A DNA stretch of 64,000 bases from [Lactobacillus] rogosae (lineage in GTDB: Bacteria > Bacillota > Clostridia > Lachnospirales > Lachnospiraceae), in NCBI GenBank assembly GCA_900112995.1, contig FONU01000005.1:62001-126000 (forward strand), in the 5' to 3' direction. How positions within the stretch are numbered: position 1 is the first letter of the stretch; the number at the start of each line of letters is the position of its first letter. Below, piece by piece: positions 6,051 through 24,302 of the stretch. Position numbers and translations under genes: made by a program. The notes beneath the pieces are model-generated. The model searched no databases and was not told the DNA's origin. It saw nothing but the letters and a program-made list of their open reading frames with translations.

Positions 6051-8363
6051 TTACACTCTGACTTTTATGCCTTTTGTGTCTCTATGTGCCATTTTCATCT
6101 TAGCAAAGTCTATCTTCTTTCCTTTATATTCCATCGTGAATTCCATTCCGTCATCCATAATGAATATATCTTCTATATAATCGTCTTTGCCAAGCTTAAT
6201 ACCTCTGACACCTACTGCACTCTTCTTCTTAACTGGTATTTCAGAAAGAGGGAACTTTAAGAACACACCATTAGCTGTCTGTACAATTACATTTTTATTA
6301 CTTACAATTTCTTCAACTTCACTTCTGCTGCCATCAAGATTAAACTTAGAAAGCGTTTCAACCTGAACGTCAGCCTTTTCAATGCTTACTATCTTGTCAT
6401 CATCCTGAAGCTTTGTCGAAGCTACCGTTCTCTTGGCTACATCAAATTCTGCCGTGTCAACTATCTTCATCATGCCCTGACTTGTAACAAAGAGCAGCTT
6501 CTGATTTTTGATAGTTTCATATGCACACAGGTATATAATAAGTTCACCGCTGCTGTCATAATTTCCAAGATTATCTATTGGAGTACCTTTGTCCCTGAAC
6601 TTAGTGAGGAAAGGAATATCCTTTACTTTAATCTGGTGAAGCTGTCCGTTATCCGTAAATATACATATTTTATCAGTATTCATACAGGTAAATACATACT
6701 TAAAATCGTTGTAGATAGCTTCCTTATTACGTTCATAAGAAGCTGTATCTATAGTCTTTGCATAGCCAAATCTATCCATAATAAATACAACTTCCTGTGC
6801 TGGAACTTCTTTTTCAACAAATACTGCAACCTTTGCATCAGTTATTACGGTCTTTCGTTCAACACCATATTCCTTCTTAATTCTTACAAGGTCGTCCTTT
6901 ATTACTTTTGCCATAGCCTTCTTACTGCCAAGTATCTTTTCATACTTTGCAATCTTTGAAAGACATTCGTCATATTCCTTCTGGAGTGCAAGTATCTCAA
7001 GACCTATAAGCTTGTACAGGCGCATTTCAAGTATGGCTGAAGCCTGCTTTTCTGTAAAATCAAGCTTAGCCGCCTGATTCTTAGAAGCTTCTGACTTGAA
7101 TTTGATATTATCAACATTACCATTAATAAGGCAGTCTTTTGCCATTTTAAGATTAGAGCTTCCACGAAGAATTTCTATTATAAGATCGATTATATCGCAG
7201 GCTCTTATAAGTCCTTCTTTAATCTCCTTATTGGCAAGCTCCTTATTAAGAAGTGTTGTGTATTTTCTTGTATTTATCTCATACTGGAAGTCAATATGAT
7301 GCTTTATTATCTGGCGTAACCCAAGAGTTTCCGGTCGGCCGTCAACTATAGCAAGCATATTTACACCAAATGTATCTTCAAGCTTAGTCTTCTTATATAA
7401 AAGGTTCTTAAGATTTTCAATATCTGTGTTCTTCTTTAATTCAAGAACTATTCTTATACCTTCTTTTGATGACTCATTTGACACATCAACAATATCAGTT
7501 GTCTTCTTGGTTTCAACCAAATCCACTATATCTGATATGAACTTTCCAATATTAGCACCTATCATTGTATAAGGAATTTCTGTTATTACAAGCCTGTCCT
7601 TCTCGCCTTTTCTTGCCGCTGGCTCATATACAACCTTTCCTCTTAACTTTATCTTTCCTGTACCAGTCTCATATATGCCTGCAAGCTCTGACTTATTAAT
7701 AACAAGTCCACCTGTAGGAAAGTCAGGTCCGGGTATATACTGCATAAGCTCAGTTGTAGTTATATCTTCATTATCCATATATGCGCATACTGCATCGACA
7801 ACTTCTGAAAGATTATGTGTTGGAATATTAGTTGTCATACCAACTGCGATACCGTCAGCACCATTTACCAACAGATTAGGTATTCTTACCGGAAGAACTG
7901 CTGGTTCTTTCTCTGTTTCATCAAAGTTAGGCACAAAATCAACTACATCTTTATCCAAGTCTGATAAATATACATCCTGTGTGAACTTCTTAAGCTTGGC
8001 TTCTGTATATCGCATAGCCGCAGCACCGTCACCTTCTATAGAACCAAAATTGCCGTGACCGTCAACAAGTGCCATTCCCTTTTTAAAATCCTGTGAAAGC
8101 ACAACAAGTGTTTCATATATAGAACTGTCGCCGTGTGGATGATATTTACCCATTGCATCACCTACGATACGCGCTGACTTTCTATGAGGTTTATCATAAT
8201 TTAAACCAAGCTGATCCATAGCATACAGCACTCTTCTTTGTACTGGCTTAAGTCCATCCCTTACATCCGGAAGTGCTCTTGCTGTTATAACACTCATTGA
8301 GTAATCTATATAGGACTTCTGCATCAGCTCAGAATATTCAGTTTTAATAATATTCTCTGCCAT
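6051..8363 (-). CDS. parC: DNA topoisomerase IV subunit A (ParC/GyrA family)
   Basis: Breakage-reunion subunit of a type IIA topoisomerase that separates linked chromosomes. The 770-residue protein has KPVQRRVLYAM at 39-49, the quinolone-resistance region GKYHPHGDSSIYETLV with Ser80 and Glu84 at the E. coli ParC positions, and the active-site Tyr119 in AAMRYTEAKL. The C-terminal domain has beta-pinwheel-like repeats, but the spot expected to hold a gyrase box reads VAKRTVASTKL, without the QRRGG(R/K)G motif. This favours topoisomerase IV over gyrase. The start has GGAG eight bases upstream. It follows parE on the same strand after a 241-bp structured gap. Both quinolone positions look like the sensitive wild type. 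Confidence 0.9.
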   Translation of the reverse strand: MAENIIKTEYSELMQKSYIDYSMSVITARALPDVRDGLKPVQRRVLYAMDQLGLNYDKPHRKSARIVGDAMGKYHPHGDSSIYETLVVLSQDFKKGMALVDGHGNFGSIEGDGAAAMRYTEAKLKKFTQDVYLSDLDKDVVDFVPNFDETEKEPAVLPVRIPNLLVNGADGIAVGMTTNIPTHNLSEVVDAVCAYMDNEDITTTELMQYIPGPDFPTGGLVINKSELAGIYETGTGKIKLRGKVVYEPAARKGEKDRLVITEIPYTMIGANIGKFISDIVDLVETKKTTDIVDVSNESSKEGIRIVLELKKNTDIENLKNLLYKKTKLEDTFGVNMLAIVDGRPETLGLRQIIKHHIDFQYEINTRKYTTLLNKELANKEIKEGLIRACDIIDLIIEILRGSSNLKMAKDCLINGNVDNIKFKSEASKNQAAKLDFTEKQASAILEMRLYKLIGLEILALQKEYDECLSKIAKYEKILGSKKAMAKVIKDDLVRIKKEYGVERKTVITDAKVAVFVEKEVPAQEVVFIMDRFGYAKTIDTASYERNKEAIYNDFKYVFTCMNTDKICIFTDNGQLHQIKVKDIPFLTKFRDKGTPIDNLGNYDSSGELIIYLCAYETIKNQKLLFVTSQGMMKIVDTAEFDVAKRTVASTKLQDDDKIVSIEKADVQVETLSKFNLDGSRSEVEEIVSNKNVIVQTANGVFLKFPLSEIPVKKKSAVGVRGIKLGKDDYIEDIFIMDDGMEFTMEYKGKKIDFAKMKMAHRDTKGIKVRV

Positions 8364-8408
8364 TATTATCTCCGTATAATACTTTTATTAATATATATCA
8401 TAATACCA

Positions 8409-8592
8409 TGGTCAAAAGGTCTAAACCCATATGAGCTTGCTCATATGTGGGTGAATGACCTTGGGACCCGCCCCAATATGAGCATAAAAGTGGGATGATA
8501 GTCCCACGATATGCGAATATTGGGGAGGATTGTGGGAGTGCGTAGCACGGAACAATCCGTAGGTATCATAGTTGGGGGCTTTTGACCCCAAC
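8409..8592 (-). other. Multi-hairpin segment between parE and parC
   Basis: This part of the 241-bp gap is clearly GC-richer than its surroundings and folds into four successive hairpins. These are GTTGGGG/CCCCAAC (8571-8577, 8586-8592); GGATTGT/ACAATCC (8527-8533, 8552-8558) with an inner GTGC/GCAC; CCCCAATAT/ATATTGGGG (8471-8479, 8517-8525) around GTGGGA/TCCCAC; and AAGGTC/GACCTT (8416-8421, 8457-8462) around CCCATATGAGC/GCTCATATGTGGG. None has a T-run, so it is not an ordinary terminator. It is probably transcribed with parE-parC. It could be a structured regulatory RNA, an mRNA processing site or a mobile palindromic repeat. Confidence 0.6.
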
Positions 8593-8604
8593 ATCATATC
8601 ATTT

Positions 8605-10581
8605 TTATGCATCAATCTCCGCTTCATTAGCGTGTGCATGTATAAATGCTCTTCTTGGTGGCACATCACTTCCCATAAGCATAGAAGTAACCTCTGTTGC
8701 CATTCTTGCATCCTCTATCTCTACCTGCTTTAATATTCTTGTCTCTGGATTAAGTGTAGTTTCCCATAACTGTTCAGGGTCCATCTCGCCAAGCCCCTTA
8801 TATCTTTGCAGAGTAAATGTTCCACTTGCGTGAAGCTCTTTATACCTTTCCAGTGCTTTATCATCATAAAGATACTGTACTGTCCTGCTCTTATCTACCT
8901 TCGTCTTAGTTCCTTCTGCCTTCTTAGAAGCTTTGTCTGCCTTAGGTACTTTCTTAAGTTCAGCCCTGTAAAGCGGTGGTGTAGCTATGTACACATGTCC
9001 CTGATTAATAAGTTCAGGCATAAATCTATAGAAAAATGTAAGCAGAAGTGTATCAATATGTGCACCATCAACATCGGCATCTGTCATAATGATAATCTTA
9101 TCGTATCTTAACTTGCTTATATCAAAATCATTGCCGTAACCTTCAAGGAAGCCACAGCCAAATGAGTTAATCATAGTCTTAATCTCGGCATTAGCAAGCA
9201 CCTTATCAATAGAAGCCTTCTCTACATTAAGTATCTTACCTCTTATTGGAAGTATAGCCTGAGTACGTCTGTTTCTTGCTGTCTTGGCTGAACCACCCGC
9301 AGAATCTCCCTCGACTATAAACACCTCACATTCCTCTGACTTCTTGCTCTCACAGTTAGCAAGCTTACCATTGGAATCTATTGAGAACTTAGACTTAGAT
9401 AAAAGATTAGTCTTCGTTCTCTCCTCTGCCTTTCTTATCTTTGCAGACTTTTCGGCACAGGCTATTACTGACTTTAACTGTTCAAGATTTCTATCAAAAT
9501 ATAACTGCACCTCATCACTTGTAACCGCACTTACAACTGTTCCCGCATCCGGATTATCAAGCTTAGTCTTAGTCTGGCCTTCAAATCTTGGTGCAGGGTG
9601 CTTGATAGCCACAATTGCTGTCATACCATTTCTTACATCAAGACCGGTAAAGTTATTATCCTTTTCTTTAAGAACACCTAACTCCCTTGCATACTGATTA
9701 ATAATCATAGTGAACTTAGACTTAAATCCTGTAATATGAGTTCCCCCCTCCTGAGTGTATATGTTATTACAAAAACCAAGAATATTTTCCTCAAACTCAT
9801 TAACATACTGGAAAGCACACTCTACCTCTATGCCGTCTTCACTCTTCTTAAAATAGATAATATCCGTCACAGCTTCCTTGCCATTGTTAAGTTCCTTTAC
9901 ATATGCCTTGATACCATCTGGTTCTGAATATGTAATCTTTTCCTCGCTTCCACTTCTCTTATCCTCAAAATGTATTGTAAGTCCCGGATTAAGATAAGTT
10001 GTCTCGTGCATTCTGCTCTTTATTGCATCTGACTTAAATCTTGTCTTTTCAAATATCTCACCATCAGGAAGAAATGTTACTTTAGTTCCTGTATCATTCT
10101 TTCTGCATGTTCCCACTTTTTCAAGTGGTGCTACTGCCTTTCCTCTTTCATAACGCTGCCTGTATACACCACCATCAACCTTTATCTCTACTTCAAGCCA
10201 AACTGAGAGTGCATTAACTACTGACGCACCTACACCATGAAGTCCGCCTGATATCTTATACCCGCCATCACCGAACTTACCACCTGCGTGAAGCACTGTA
10301 AATACTACCTCAACTGCAGGTATGCCTGCCTTTGGATGAATTCCTATAGGAATACCTCGTCCATTATCTATAATAGTAGCAGTTCCATCATTATTAAGGG
10401 TTACTGTAATCTCGCTACAGTAACCCGCAAGGTGTTCATCAACTGCATTATCAGCTATCTCATATATAAGGTGGTTAAGTCCTTTAGTTCCAACACTTCC
10501 TATATACATTCCTGGTCTTTTTCTTACAGCTTCAAGACCTTCAAGAATTGATATACTATTTGCATCATATTTTGCTGCCAT
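8605..10581 (-). CDS. parE: DNA topoisomerase IV subunit B (ParE/GyrB family)
   Basis: ATPase subunit partnering ParC. The 658-residue protein shows the GHKL ATP-binding motifs IADNAVDEH (near 42-50), DNGRGIP and LHGVGASVVNALS. The TOPRIM motif VEGDSAGGSA lies near 424, followed by PIRGKILNVEKA and the metal-binding DADVDGAHI near 500. The tail RYKGLGEMDPEQLWETTLNP is typical. It lies upstream of parC on the same strand, which is the usual order of the pair. GyrB and ParE are close relatives; the partner without a gyrase box supports ParE. Confidence 0.9.
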   Translation of the reverse strand: MAAKYDANSISILEGLEAVRKRPGMYIGSVGTKGLNHLIYEIADNAVDEHLAGYCSEITVTLNNDGTATIIDNGRGIPIGIHPKAGIPAVEVVFTVLHAGGKFGDGGYKISGGLHGVGASVVNALSVWLEVEIKVDGGVYRQRYERGKAVAPLEKVGTCRKNDTGTKVTFLPDGEIFEKTRFKSDAIKSRMHETTYLNPGLTIHFEDKRSGSEEKITYSEPDGIKAYVKELNNGKEAVTDIIYFKKSEDGIEVECAFQYVNEFEENILGFCNNIYTQEGGTHITGFKSKFTMIINQYARELGVLKEKDNNFTGLDVRNGMTAIVAIKHPAPRFEGQTKTKLDNPDAGTVVSAVTSDEVQLYFDRNLEQLKSVIACAEKSAKIRKAEERTKTNLLSKSKFSIDSNGKLANCESKKSEECEVFIVEGDSAGGSAKTARNRRTQAILPIRGKILNVEKASIDKVLANAEIKTMINSFGCGFLEGYGNDFDISKLRYDKIIIMTDADVDGAHIDTLLLTFFYRFMPELINQGHVYIATPPLYRAELKKVPKADKASKKAEGTKTKVDKSRTVQYLYDDKALERYKELHASGTFTLQRYKGLGEMDPEQLWETTLNPETRILKQVEIEDARMATEVTSMLMGSDVPPRRAFIHAHANEAEIDA

Positions 10582-14111: not shown

Positions 14112-15773
14112 CTACTCAGTCATACTTCTGTTCATTGCTGATTCTACCGCATCAATTGAAGCTCTTATGATATCGTGGTCGATACCTATGCCAAAGTATT
14201 CTTTACCATCATCACCCTTAATTCCTACATATGCAATAGCACTTGAATCAGAACCCTGCTTTAATGAATGTTCCTCATAGCATATTACATCACAAGGCTT
14301 TCCAAAATGCTTTGAAAGTGCATTACTTACAGCATCAAGACGACCATTACCACCCGCTTCTACTACTGTTGTCTTTCCATCAGCCTCAATTGTAACTTCT
14401 GTCTGGATACCATCAATCTGCTTGAAATGGACTTCTGAAATCTTGAATACCGGTGTGAACTTCTTATAACGCCTCTCAAATATCTCAAGAACCTCATCTG
14501 CTGCAAGTTCCTTATGGTTAACATCCGATACATCTTTAACAGCATAACCTAGGTCTTCTCTCATAGCCTTTGGAATAATCATTCCATAATTATGCTCAAG
14601 AACATAAGCAACTCCGCCCTTACCTGACTGGCTGTTAATTCTGATTACGTCTGAGTCATATGTACGTCCAACATCTTCTGGATTAATTGGAAGATATGGA
14701 ACTGTCCACTTAGATGGATCCTGTTCAATTCTATAGTGCATACCTTTAGATATGGCATCCTGATGTGAACCAGAGAATGCTGCAAATACAAGCTTACCAC
14801 AGTATGGGTGTCTGTCATCTATCTTCATCTGTGTAAGACGTTCGAACATCTCTGCAAGCTCTGGCATATTAGAAAAATCCAATTCCGGGTCAACGCCCTG
14901 TGCGTACATATTCATAGCAAGATTAACAATATCCACATTACCAGTTCTCTCACCATTGCCAAATAATGTACCTTCTATTCTGTCTGCACCTGCAAGCATA
15001 CCAAGCTCTGCATCTGCAACGCCTGTTCCTCTGTCATTATGTGGATGAAGTGATACAACTACATTTTCTCGATTATGAAGATTCTTGCTCATATATTCAA
15101 CCTGACTTGCAAATACATGTGGAAGTGACATCTCTACTGTAGCAGGAAGATTAATTATACACTTCTTATCAGGTGTTGGCTGCCATATATCTATAACTGC
15201 ATTACACACTTCAAGTGCGTATTCTGGCTCTGTTCCTGTAAAGCTTTCAGGACTATATTCAAAAAGGAAATTACCGCCATCTGCTTCTGCAAGTTCTTTA
15301 AGAAGCTTAGCGCCCTCAATTGCAATCTGTTTGATTTCTTCTTTAGACTTTCTGAATACCTGCTCTCTTTGTGCAAGAGATGTCGAATTGTATACATGTA
15401 CAATCGCTCTTGGTGCACCCTTTACAGCTTCAAAAGTCTTCTTAATAATATGCGGTCTTGCCTGTGTAAGCACCTGAATTGTAACATCATCAGGAATCAT
15501 ATTCTTCTCAATAAGTGTACGGCAAAGCTCATACTCTGTCTCTGATGCTGCCGGGAAACCAATCTCAATTTCCTTAAATCCAACCTTAATAAGCTTATTA
15601 AAGAATTCAAGCTTTTCATCAAGACTCATAGGCTCAACTAAAGCCTGATTACCATCTCTTAAATCCACTGAACACCATACTGGTGCTTTGTCAATATACT
15701 CCTTCTTTACCCAGTCGTTACACTCAACCGGTGGCATAAAATAACCTCTCTTATACTGTCTGTAATCAAACAT
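14112..15773 (-). CDS. leuA: 2-isopropylmalate synthase
   Basis: Condenses acetyl-CoA with 2-ketoisovalerate, the committed step of leucine synthesis. The protein has 553 residues, the length of the longer LeuA class found in actinobacteria, yeast and many clostridia. It has the DRE-TIM metallolyase start SVDLRDGNQALVEPMSL, the metal-binding HPHNDRGTGVADAE and GTLFGNGERTGNVDIV. After a linker, the last 130 residues form the LeuA allosteric domain (VTIEADGKTTVVEAGGNG), so leucine feedback is expected. A T-box leader lies directly upstream, giving control by uncharged leucine tRNA. Confidence 0.96.
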   Translation of the reverse strand: MFDYRQYKRGYFMPPVECNDWVKKEYIDKAPVWCSVDLRDGNQALVEPMSLDEKLEFFNKLIKVGFKEIEIGFPAASETEYELCRTLIEKNMIPDDVTIQVLTQARPHIIKKTFEAVKGAPRAIVHVYNSTSLAQREQVFRKSKEEIKQIAIEGAKLLKELAEADGGNFLFEYSPESFTGTEPEYALEVCNAVIDIWQPTPDKKCIINLPATVEMSLPHVFASQVEYMSKNLHNRENVVVSLHPHNDRGTGVADAELGMLAGADRIEGTLFGNGERTGNVDIVNLAMNMYAQGVDPELDFSNMPELAEMFERLTQMKIDDRHPYCGKLVFAAFSGSHQDAISKGMHYRIEQDPSKWTVPYLPINPEDVGRTYDSDVIRINSQSGKGGVAYVLEHNYGMIIPKAMREDLGYAVKDVSDVNHKELAADEVLEIFERRYKKFTPVFKISEVHFKQIDGIQTEVTIEADGKTTVVEAGGNGRLDAVSNALSKHFGKPCDVICYEEHSLKQGSDSSAIAYVGIKGDDGKEYFGIGIDHDIIRASIDAVESAMNRSMTE

Positions 15774-15825: not shown

Positions 15826-16132
15826 AAAAAAATCTTTCATCTCCAAAGGCCTTAACCTCTAAGAGACGAAAGATATAATCTCACGCGTTACCACTCTTAT
15901 TCGCAATTAATAATTGCGCTCTCACCGAATACGTGCATATTGCATTATATTCTGTCCACTATAACGGTTGGCTTCCGTCTACGTCTACTCTTATATCCTG
16001 CTGATATAATTTCGGGTAGCAGCTCCAAGGTGAGTTCAATAAGTTCCTTTCACTGTCTCGCACCTTCCGACAGTTCTCTGAAGCTGGTCCTTATCTAATA
16101 TTCCTCTTCATTGCATTTACTTATTATCAATT
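15826..16132 (-). promoter_or_regulatory. T-box leader of leuA
   Basis: The - strand leader carries the T-box core AAGAGTGGTAACGCG (15897-15883), which pairs with the free end of uncharged tRNA. It is followed by the terminator ATCTTTCGTCTC ... GAGATGAAAGAT (15874-15863, 15843-15832) and a T-run. The upstream half contains GGTGCGAG and, further on, GAACTCACCTTGGAGCTGC, matching Stem I. The codon CTC there (Leu) fits the specifier position and the gene served. Seen directly: T-box and terminator. Inferred: the specifier. Confidence 0.92.
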
Positions 16133-20929: not shown

Positions 20930-22815
20930 TCAACATAATGGTCATCTATCTCAGTAACAAATCTTGAAATGGTTGTATCCTTGTTATATCTGCTTTTAGC
21001 ATATAACAGATACAACTTTTCTTTTGCCCTTGTCATCGCAACATACATAAGCCTTCTCTCCTCTTCTATCTCATAATCAAGCACAGCTTTATTATAAGGA
21101 ATTATCCCCTCAACCACGTCCATAATAAATACTACTTTGTACTCAAGTCCTTTACAACTATGCATTGTATGAAAATGTACTGCATTATCGTTATCTTGCG
21201 GATAAGAATTTTTAGAAGCCTTTATATTCTCAACTAATGCTGCATTTTTAGAATTATTCATACTTATATTATTGTTATTAATATATTCCAGCCAGTTATC
21301 TATTGTGTCAAACTGCTTTGCCATTTCTTTGAATTCTTCAATCTTATCGTAAGCTTCTGTCCCGTTAATCCTATGCGTTAATATATATTCCTTATAATAT
21401 TCTTCATAACCAATACCTTTAATTATATAATTAACCGCCGCATATGGCGACATATTTTTAATTATATTCATATCAAACTGCCAATCATTGATTATATTTA
21501 TCATTTCAGCATTATTCTCATAAGAAGCTCTTAGCTGTTCATAACTAAAAGGTTCTTTTATAAATGTCCTTTTTATATATCTTAATGGTTTATTGACAAT
21601 CCTTAAGATATCCTCTCTTTTACATTTTCCCTTCGACACCTTAATATATGCAAGCATATCCTTAACAGCCCAGTAATCATATATATTCTCCTGTTTCATC
21701 ACCGAAACGCAGGGAATTCCATCATCAATAAGTCTGGAATAATATATACCATTAATACTGTTGGTTCTTGATATAACAGCAATATCTGATGGTTCAATGC
21801 CATCTTCTATCAGCTTCTTTATACTATCCGAAAGCATTTTCTTAAGACTATGTATATCTTTTGCTTCCTGTACCTGTATACATTCTCCTACCATACCTGC
21901 TGATTTGATATTTTTGTAATAGCGTAGAGAATTATTACCAATAAGACTTCGTGCTGCTTTAACAATATTATCAGTACACCTGTAATTGACATTCAGATTT
22001 ATTATTTCTGCATTACTATAATAATCTTTAAATGCAAGCATAATATCAGGCTTAGAGCCTCTAAATCCATATATACTCTGATCATCATCTCCAACAGCAA
22101 ATATATTCGCACTTTCCCCTGCAATCAATTTAATTGTGTCAAACTGCATTTTATTAATATCCTGAAATTCATCAATAAGAATATACTTGTATTTATCCTG
22201 CCACGCAGCTTTATAATCAGCCCTCTGTGTAAGAAGCTCATTGCACAGAACTACCATATCATCATAATCTATAAGCCTTCTTGATATAAGCATTTTCCCA
22301 TATTCTTTATATATTATCCTGAATGTTTCGTAGGGACAGGCTGTACTGATATAATCATCTATATTAAGACAATCATTCTTTACCTTGCTTATCTGCGATA
22401 AAATGCTGTTTACCGTTTCATTTTCATCTGAATATTCAAGTTCAAAGCTTATAAGCTTGTCCCTGATAAAATTATATTGTAAATCTCTCGTAATAATGGA
22501 ATTAACTGAATAATTATATGCGTGACGCAGTATCGTAAAAAATACCGCATGAAATGTACCAAATGTAACTGGTACATTAAGACTTCCTTCTAAAGACATA
22601 AACCTTTCTTTCATAGACACCGCCGCCGCTTTGGTAAAAGTTATAACCAGTATTGATGACGGCTTGATACTATGCTTAATAATAAGGTTATATACTCTGT
22701 TAACTATAACTGTGGTCTTTCCAGAACCTGGACCTGCAATAACAAGTGCAGGTCCATCTTTAAAATGTATTGCTCTATTCTGTGCTTCACTTAAATGTAT
22801 ATCTGTTCTGCTAAT
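20899..22815 (-). CDS. UvrD/Rep-family superfamily 1 DNA helicase
   Basis: ATP-dependent DNA helicase of about 638 residues. The downstream GTG at 22620 would remove motif I, so the start must be upstream. In frame, the codons run from ATA/ATC/ATT at 22821-22813 directly into SEAQNRAIHFKDGPALVIAG, then PGSGKTTVIVNRVYNLI (Walker A) and LVITFTKAAA (motif Ia). No ATG, GTG or TTG lies between the greA stop and Walker A. AAAGGTGG sits six bases before ATT, the likeliest start. Further motifs are YILIDEFQDINKMQFD (II), GDDDQSIYGFRGSKP (III), NYRCTD (IV), HTMHSCKGLEYKVVFIM (V) and EERRLMYVAMTRAKEKLYL (VI). It is shorter than PcrA. The gene follows greA by 15 bp. Confidence 0.85.
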   Translation of the reverse strand: MSRTDIHLSEAQNRAIHFKDGPALVIAGPGSGKTTVIVNRVYNLIIKHSIKPSSILVITFTKAAAVSMKERFMSLEGSLNVPVTFGTFHAVFFTILRHAYNYSVNSIITRDLQYNFIRDKLISFELEYSDENETVNSILSQISKVKNDCLNIDDYISTACPYETFRIIYKEYGKMLISRRLIDYDDMVVLCNELLTQRADYKAAWQDKYKYILIDEFQDINKMQFDTIKLIAGESANIFAVGDDDQSIYGFRGSKPDIMLAFKDYYSNAEIINLNVNYRCTDNIVKAARSLIGNNSLRYYKNIKSAGMVGECIQVQEAKDIHSLKKMLSDSIKKLIEDGIEPSDIAVISRTNSINGIYYSRLIDDGIPCVSVMKQENIYDYWAVKDMLAYIKVSKGKCKREDILRIVNKPLRYIKRTFIKEPFSYEQLRASYENNAEMINIINDWQFDMNIIKNMSPYAAVNYIIKGIGYEEYYKEYILTHRINGTEAYDKIEEFKEMAKQFDTIDNWLEYINNNNISMNNSKNAALVENIKASKNSYPQDNDNAVHFHTMHSCKGLEYKVVFIMDVVEGIIPYNKAVLDYEIEEERRLMYVAMTRAKEKLYLLYAKSRYNKDTTISRFVTEIDDHYVDYSFSESSCS

Positions 22816-24110: not shown

Positions 24111-24164
24111 TATTCCGGAATAAAAAGTCGTAGAATATGTTTTTTATTGAAGTCTGGGGTGTTA

Positions 24165-24209
24165 GCGGATTGTTCGGATTACATAGCAATGCAGCAATCC
24201 GAACACCGC
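24165..24209. repeat. Long inverted repeat between the lyase-like gene and thiT
   Basis: TGTTCGGATT (24171-24180) pairs exactly with AATCCGAACA (24196-24205), extended by GCGG/CCGC after a small bulge. There is no T-run on either side, so it is not a classical terminator. It is GC-richer than its flanks. The rest of 24211-24302 shows only a short AT hairpin and nothing else I can name. Confidence 0.6.
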
Positions 24210-24302
24210 AATAAGTGTTAAAATTTCTTTTAACCCTTACATCATTAATATTCTATCAGCTATTATAATCAATATATGATATCTTGTTTATTTATCATCT
24301 TT

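Follow-up and report, generated by a model that had tools for sequence, protein, structure and literature searches.

A Probable MITE Bearing the Rfam Motif Clostridiales-1 Between parE- and parC-Like Genes of [Lactobacillus] rogosae, and Its Candidate Transposase

The structured segment between a parE-like and a parC-like gene in the 64,000-nt stretch of [Lactobacillus] rogosae DNA analyzed here (hereafter, the window) is, with high confidence, a 196-bp MITE (8401-8596) that inserted in this intergenic region in this lineage and was probably moved by an IS1182-like transposase. Its plus strand matches Rfam family RF01699 (Clostridiales-1), an orphan that has stood in Rfam for 16 years under the small RNA gene type and is here recast as mobile DNA, with a candidate transposase. 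Among the papers searched, none describes RF01699 as mobile; its mobility, together with its probable transposase, is the new point of this work. The element is an ordinary kind, a MITE, in the unusual dress of a covarying Rfam motif.

Fold, extent and Rfam identity

The parE-parC gap spans 241 nt (8364-8604), from the start of the parC-like gene (8363, minus strand) to the stop of the parE-like gene (8605), the latter of which also scored 748 bits against parE_Gpos, under that model's cut-off. Folded as minus-strand RNA, the gap had a minimum free energy of -87.5 kcal/mol, compared with -56.1 ± 4.6 kcal/mol for shuffled sequences (z = -6.86; 0 of 200 shuffles equaled it). In agreement with the preliminary description, four strong hairpins were found, the second and third with inner hairpins (Table 1), and the segment is richer in G+C than its surroundings (47% across the Rfam match vs. 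36% in the whole window). The true unit, 8401-8596 plus the flanking TATCA, is slightly larger than the extent given earlier, 8409-8592. The statement that no hairpin has a T-run needs qualifying for the inner hairpin at 8507-8490 on the minus strand, which has a weak terminator-like tail (TTTTATG), the one such site seen. A promoter search of the element region returned none above chance, and the ribosome-binding site of the parC-like gene (ACGGAG) is intact, with 37 nt separating the element from the start codon. The whole unit bears the tip TGATNNNRGNGTCAAAAG at either end, as 18-bp terminal inverted repeats, and no transposase ORF was found inside it.

The RF01699 match covers the full-length model on the plus strand, antisense to the parE-parC operon, and lies far above the gathering threshold. 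The segment had been matched to no known riboswitch class; it is indeed not a riboswitch, but its plus strand is a known motif, which was missed because the minus strand was read and riboswitches were in mind. Clostridiales-1 was reported as a candidate structured RNA from Clostridiales and human gut samples and was tabulated as a probable RNA, neither a cis-regulator nor a switch (Weinberg et al., 2010; PMC2864571). The likeness between that motif and our element extends to sequence and fold over the whole model and to the hosts (Clostridiales, human gut). However, the Rfam model ends before hairpin 4 while the element continues through it, and the model therefore misses the right inverted repeat and, with it, the mobility. 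Indeed, homology among aligned copies runs past the model and through hairpin 4.

Table 1. Coordinates of the element, its parts and the flanking genes in the window.
Feature	Coordinates	Strand	Basis
parC-like type II topoisomerase subunit A, downstream gene	6051..8363	-	NCBIfam subfamily NF004044, 683 bits (cut-off 654)
Target-site duplication, left copy, TATCA	8396..8400	.	Exact match to 8597-8601, just outside the inverted repeats
Left terminal inverted repeat, TAATACCATGGTCAAAAG	8401..8418	+	Matches family tip TGATNNNRGNGTCAAAAG
Rfam RF01699 Clostridiales-1 core	8401..8568	+	144.9 bits by cmscan over model positions 1-166 of 166 (gathering 48)
Hairpin 1, length varies in family, loop GCTTGC	8410..8468	+	Fold, family alignment, pair counts
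Hairpin 2, inner hairpin 8491-8507, conserved internal loop	8471..8525	+	Helices 2 and 3: both sides changed in 12/14 pairs
Hairpin 3, GGATTG-GGGAG-stem-GGAA-CAATCC, C(GNA)G loop	8527..8558	+	Helices 4 and 5: both sides changed in 8/11 pairs
Hairpin 4, includes the greater part of the right inverted repeat (GTTGGGG...CCCCAAC)	8571..8592	+	Fold; outside Rfam model, inside repeat
Right terminal inverted repeat, TGATGTTGGGGTCAAAAG	8579..8596	-	Tip pattern search of genome
Target-site duplication, right copy, TATCA	8597..8601	.	Matches left copy 8396-8400
parE-like type II topoisomerase subunit B, upstream gene	8605..10581	-	NCBIfam subfamily NF004189, 867 bits (cut-off 740)

Target sites, copies and hosts

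Among 91 copies from the element's own genome and its relatives, both tips were present in 68, of which 35 were flanked by exact 5-bp and 7 by exact 6-bp duplications; the consensus of the duplicated target is about TWWTA. Public-genome loci fetched by a hairpin-3 pattern showed 5-bp duplications in 15 of 25 two-ended copies, and at one locus (L057) two insertions lie in tandem with an AAATA duplication at each. Readable parE-parC gaps were compared among relatives, with gyrase pairs and order-level matches left out, and the element was found in none of the gaps of 19 other genomes (17 of the same genus and two from elsewhere in the family), which measure 12-142 nt. The gap of the closest relative, whose ParC is 95% identical, is 65 nt long and without the element, and the gap of the window, after removal of the element and one TATCA, would be 40 nt. 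The element thus entered the parE-parC gap by insertion, and did so recently as measured against the history of the genus. Since it has inverted repeats and target duplications and is absent from the 19 other gaps, we assign it to the MITEs. The mobile palindromic repeat that was among the earlier suggestions is borne out by scattered copies with inverted repeats and duplicated targets, by unoccupied sites and by a transposon that matches; the element is also short and non-coding, and the transposon is an autonomous relative sharing its ends.

Structured MITEs of bacteria include BOX and RUP in Streptococcus pneumoniae, ERIC in enterobacteria and the Correia repeats of Neisseria. Like these, the present element is short, intergenic, multicopy and foldable, and is trans-mobilized or presumed so; what sets it apart is an interior of several hairpins that covary in many genera of a single family.

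The element's own genome (a 2.8-Mb draft in 49 contigs) contains nine RF01699 matches on eight contigs, seven of them over the cut-off. A DNA search raised this to 18 matches by adding shorter and internally deleted forms, one of which is ~70 bp long and has both tips; four copies are full-length and several truncated, at scattered sites. A pattern search for the tip motif gave 18 sites in this genome vs. 0 for the reversed control. At 24150-24244 in the window, a hairpin segment (GGATTG...CAATCC) ends in the tip TGATGTAAGGGTTAAAAG on the minus strand, the left tip not being found; it is probably a degenerate relative of the RF01699 element.

RF01699 was matched at E 0.001 in 83 of 150 genomes of the family (64 over the cut-off), often with more than 10 matches each. 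In a sample drawn evenly from the class, 9 of 291 genomes were positive: seven belong to the element's family, its own genome among them, an eighth to a different family in the order, and the ninth match is weak. Named hosts, which include the isolate Eubacterium ramulus ATCC 29099 and Hominisplanchenecus faecis, are almost all Lachnospiraceae. Most copies are ~184-224 bp long and intergenic, beside unrelated genes in all orientations. Relative to the flanking genes, orientation was sense-sense in 37 cases, antisense-antisense in 21, divergent in 17 and convergent in 10, a weak sense bias based on crude ORF calls.

One genome of another family of the order (G185) has six RF01699 matches, two of them in tandem, at C6:50418-50738 and elsewhere; transfer or an older origin is possible for this occurrence outside the main host family. 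In another genome (G027), ~100 tips were found and many contigs begin 60-170 bases from a tip, which reflects a recent amplification that breaks the assembly.

The covarying interior

The interior of the element is a separate fold (RF01699) rather than transposon sequence, and it has been kept by extensive compensatory change. In 30 copies from 27 genomes, both sides had changed in 22 of 29 pairs, and the covariation score was 0.496, compared with 0.177 ± 0.011 for shuffles (0 of 500 reached it) and at most 0.130 for slid structures. Both the length and the sequence of hairpin 1 differ among copies, but it keeps its GCTTGC loop, which is almost invariant on the plus strand as G(CUUG)C; in hairpin 3, GGGAG/GGA is kept and the C(GNA)G loop mostly so. 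Since compensatory change is extensive, the folded strand, whether as RNA or as DNA, is selected or maintained.

We favor, with less certainty than the insertion itself, the possibility that the fold acts as plus-strand RNA in read-through of flanking operons, where a compact fold without a strong terminator would make insertions between genes tolerable. Selection at the level of DNA is a real alternative, though we consider it somewhat improbable: the fold may act as hairpin DNA during transposition, in cruciform or single-strand form, or the palindromes may be kept by template-switch correction. Wobble pairs bear on this choice. Over all pairs, a column count gave 39 G-U and 27 A-C, i.e., 1.5% and 1.1% of cells, and such a scarcity of G-U, with A-C nearly as frequent, is consistent with DNA, as is the resemblance of the C(GNA)G loop to very stable DNA mini-hairpins. 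On the other hand, hairpin 3 contained 13 G-U and no A-C by column alignment, though an unbiased recount gave 13 to 7, and template switching does not account for the conserved unpaired bases. As a gauge of the active strand, a terminator-like control gave only 30 G-U vs. 15 A-C, and the seven tRNAs in the fetched DNA were too few to serve as a control.

It is also conceivable, but unlikely, that the interior is a selected RNA cargo that aids spread or persistence, e.g., if it binds the mRNA of the transposase or a protein of the host, which would make Clostridiales-1 a selfish mobile structured RNA. Quite improbable, in our judgment, is the view of Clostridiales-1 as the gene of a trans-acting small RNA, multicopy by happenstance, as the Rfam type 'Gene; sRNA' implies. 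The strong covariation, the conserved unpaired motifs and the near-invariant plus-strand G(CUUG)C loop would all suit such a gene. Against it, the unit is mobile, with inverted repeats and duplicated target sites, its region has no promoter above chance, and an RNA gene should clearly favor G-U, which the recount of hairpin 3 (13 vs. 7 A-C) does not show. Mobility would nonetheless be compatible with a small RNA, since a MITE could carry one.

Candidate transposase and the setting in the window

The candidate partner is an 1850-bp transposon of a relative (L075:3226-5075) found by screening every fetched locus for tip pairs with duplications. It has the tips TGATGTTGGGGTCAAAT and TGATGTTGGGGTCAATT, a 6-bp duplication (TCAATA) and one long ORF, the transposase gene at L075:3283-4935, whose product contains DUF772 and DDE_Tnp_1_6, both above Pfam gathering. 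IS1182 was its best NCBIfam match; since the score against the equivalog NF033551 was 120.8 bits, under the cut-off of 270, we call it only IS1182-like. The IS1182 family and the partner thus share DUF772 and DDE_Tnp_1_6 and terminal inverted repeats, but the protein falls under the NCBIfam equivalog cut-off and the duplications seen here are regularly 5-6 bp long. Homologous transposases or fragments, mostly broken, occur in five further genomes (G118, G051, G038, G053 and G143), where the same tip adjoins them; at the right end in G118, the first 22 nt are common to the right end in the window (TGATGTTGGGGTCAAAAGCCCC). Both tips together with a clean duplication were seen in a single transposon copy only. 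From the shared ends, the IS1182-like transposase would bind the tips and move the MITE in trans.

All six transposase-bearing genomes also carry RF01699, yet the transposase is rare (clear in 6 of 150 genomes) and the MITE common. The IS1182-like transposase is missing from most of the MITE-bearing genomes examined, which would fit mobilization by another transposase sharing the same ends. We regard this as rather doubtful, since no sampled DDE_Tnp_1 or rve locus from the 150 genomes has such tips while the IS1182-like relatives in six genomes have them. Specifically, 70 loci with DDE_Tnp_1 (PF01609) transposases from 150 genomes, read both by pattern and by de novo inverted-repeat search, and 50 loci with rve (PF00665) transposases gave no matching tips. 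Tip pairs in two high-copy genomes enclosed short elements only.

To return to the IS1182-like partner, no recognizable copy of its transposase was found in the 49 contigs of the element's own draft genome, and present mobilization there is therefore unproven. The transposons contain no RF01699 match, so that simple deletion does not derive the MITE from them; the two share their ends and have unrelated interiors. A testable question follows, namely what reason a non-autonomous transposon has for retaining several covarying hairpins in an interior that bears no relation to its partner.

Another MITE-like family, 272-273 bp long, has comparable tips (TGAGTGGAGTGTCAAAAG / TGATTAGAGTGTCAAAAG) but a different interior and was seen at L075:2950-3222, L076:3122-3393 and L077:2922-3193; in L075 it adjoins the intact transposon.

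The position between parE and parC is a matter of chance. For an RNA structure in the parE-parC transcript that sets the proportion of ParE to ParC, be it through attenuation, processing or translational coupling, one could cite the great stability of the fold, placed as it is between the genes of a single complex, and the one weak terminator-like hairpin of the mRNA strand. Such a device is highly improbable given that this gap lacks the element in all 19 other genomes compared, 17 of them congeneric, that the conserved strand of the family is antisense to the operon, that copies in either orientation adjoin unrelated genes and that the target duplication marks a secondary insertion. With 0 of 19 other gaps carrying the element, neither the ratio-setting RNA nor the locus-specific mRNA processing site suggested earlier was sustained, and regulation of parE:parC as an ancestral function is refuted, the locus conservation of a cis-regulator being absent. 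RF01699 matches should accordingly be read with caution and not be taken for regulators of adjacent genes.

Two other RNA features were detected in the window, both on the minus strand. A T-box leader (15859-16120, 123 bits) lies upstream of a 2-isopropylmalate synthase gene (14112-15773, minus strand) and probably represents ordinary amino-acid control. A match to RF03531 (n00280) at 20995-21093 (78.9 bits, cut-off 65.2), a C. difficile small RNA said to sit within a helicase gene, may reflect protein-coding conservation.
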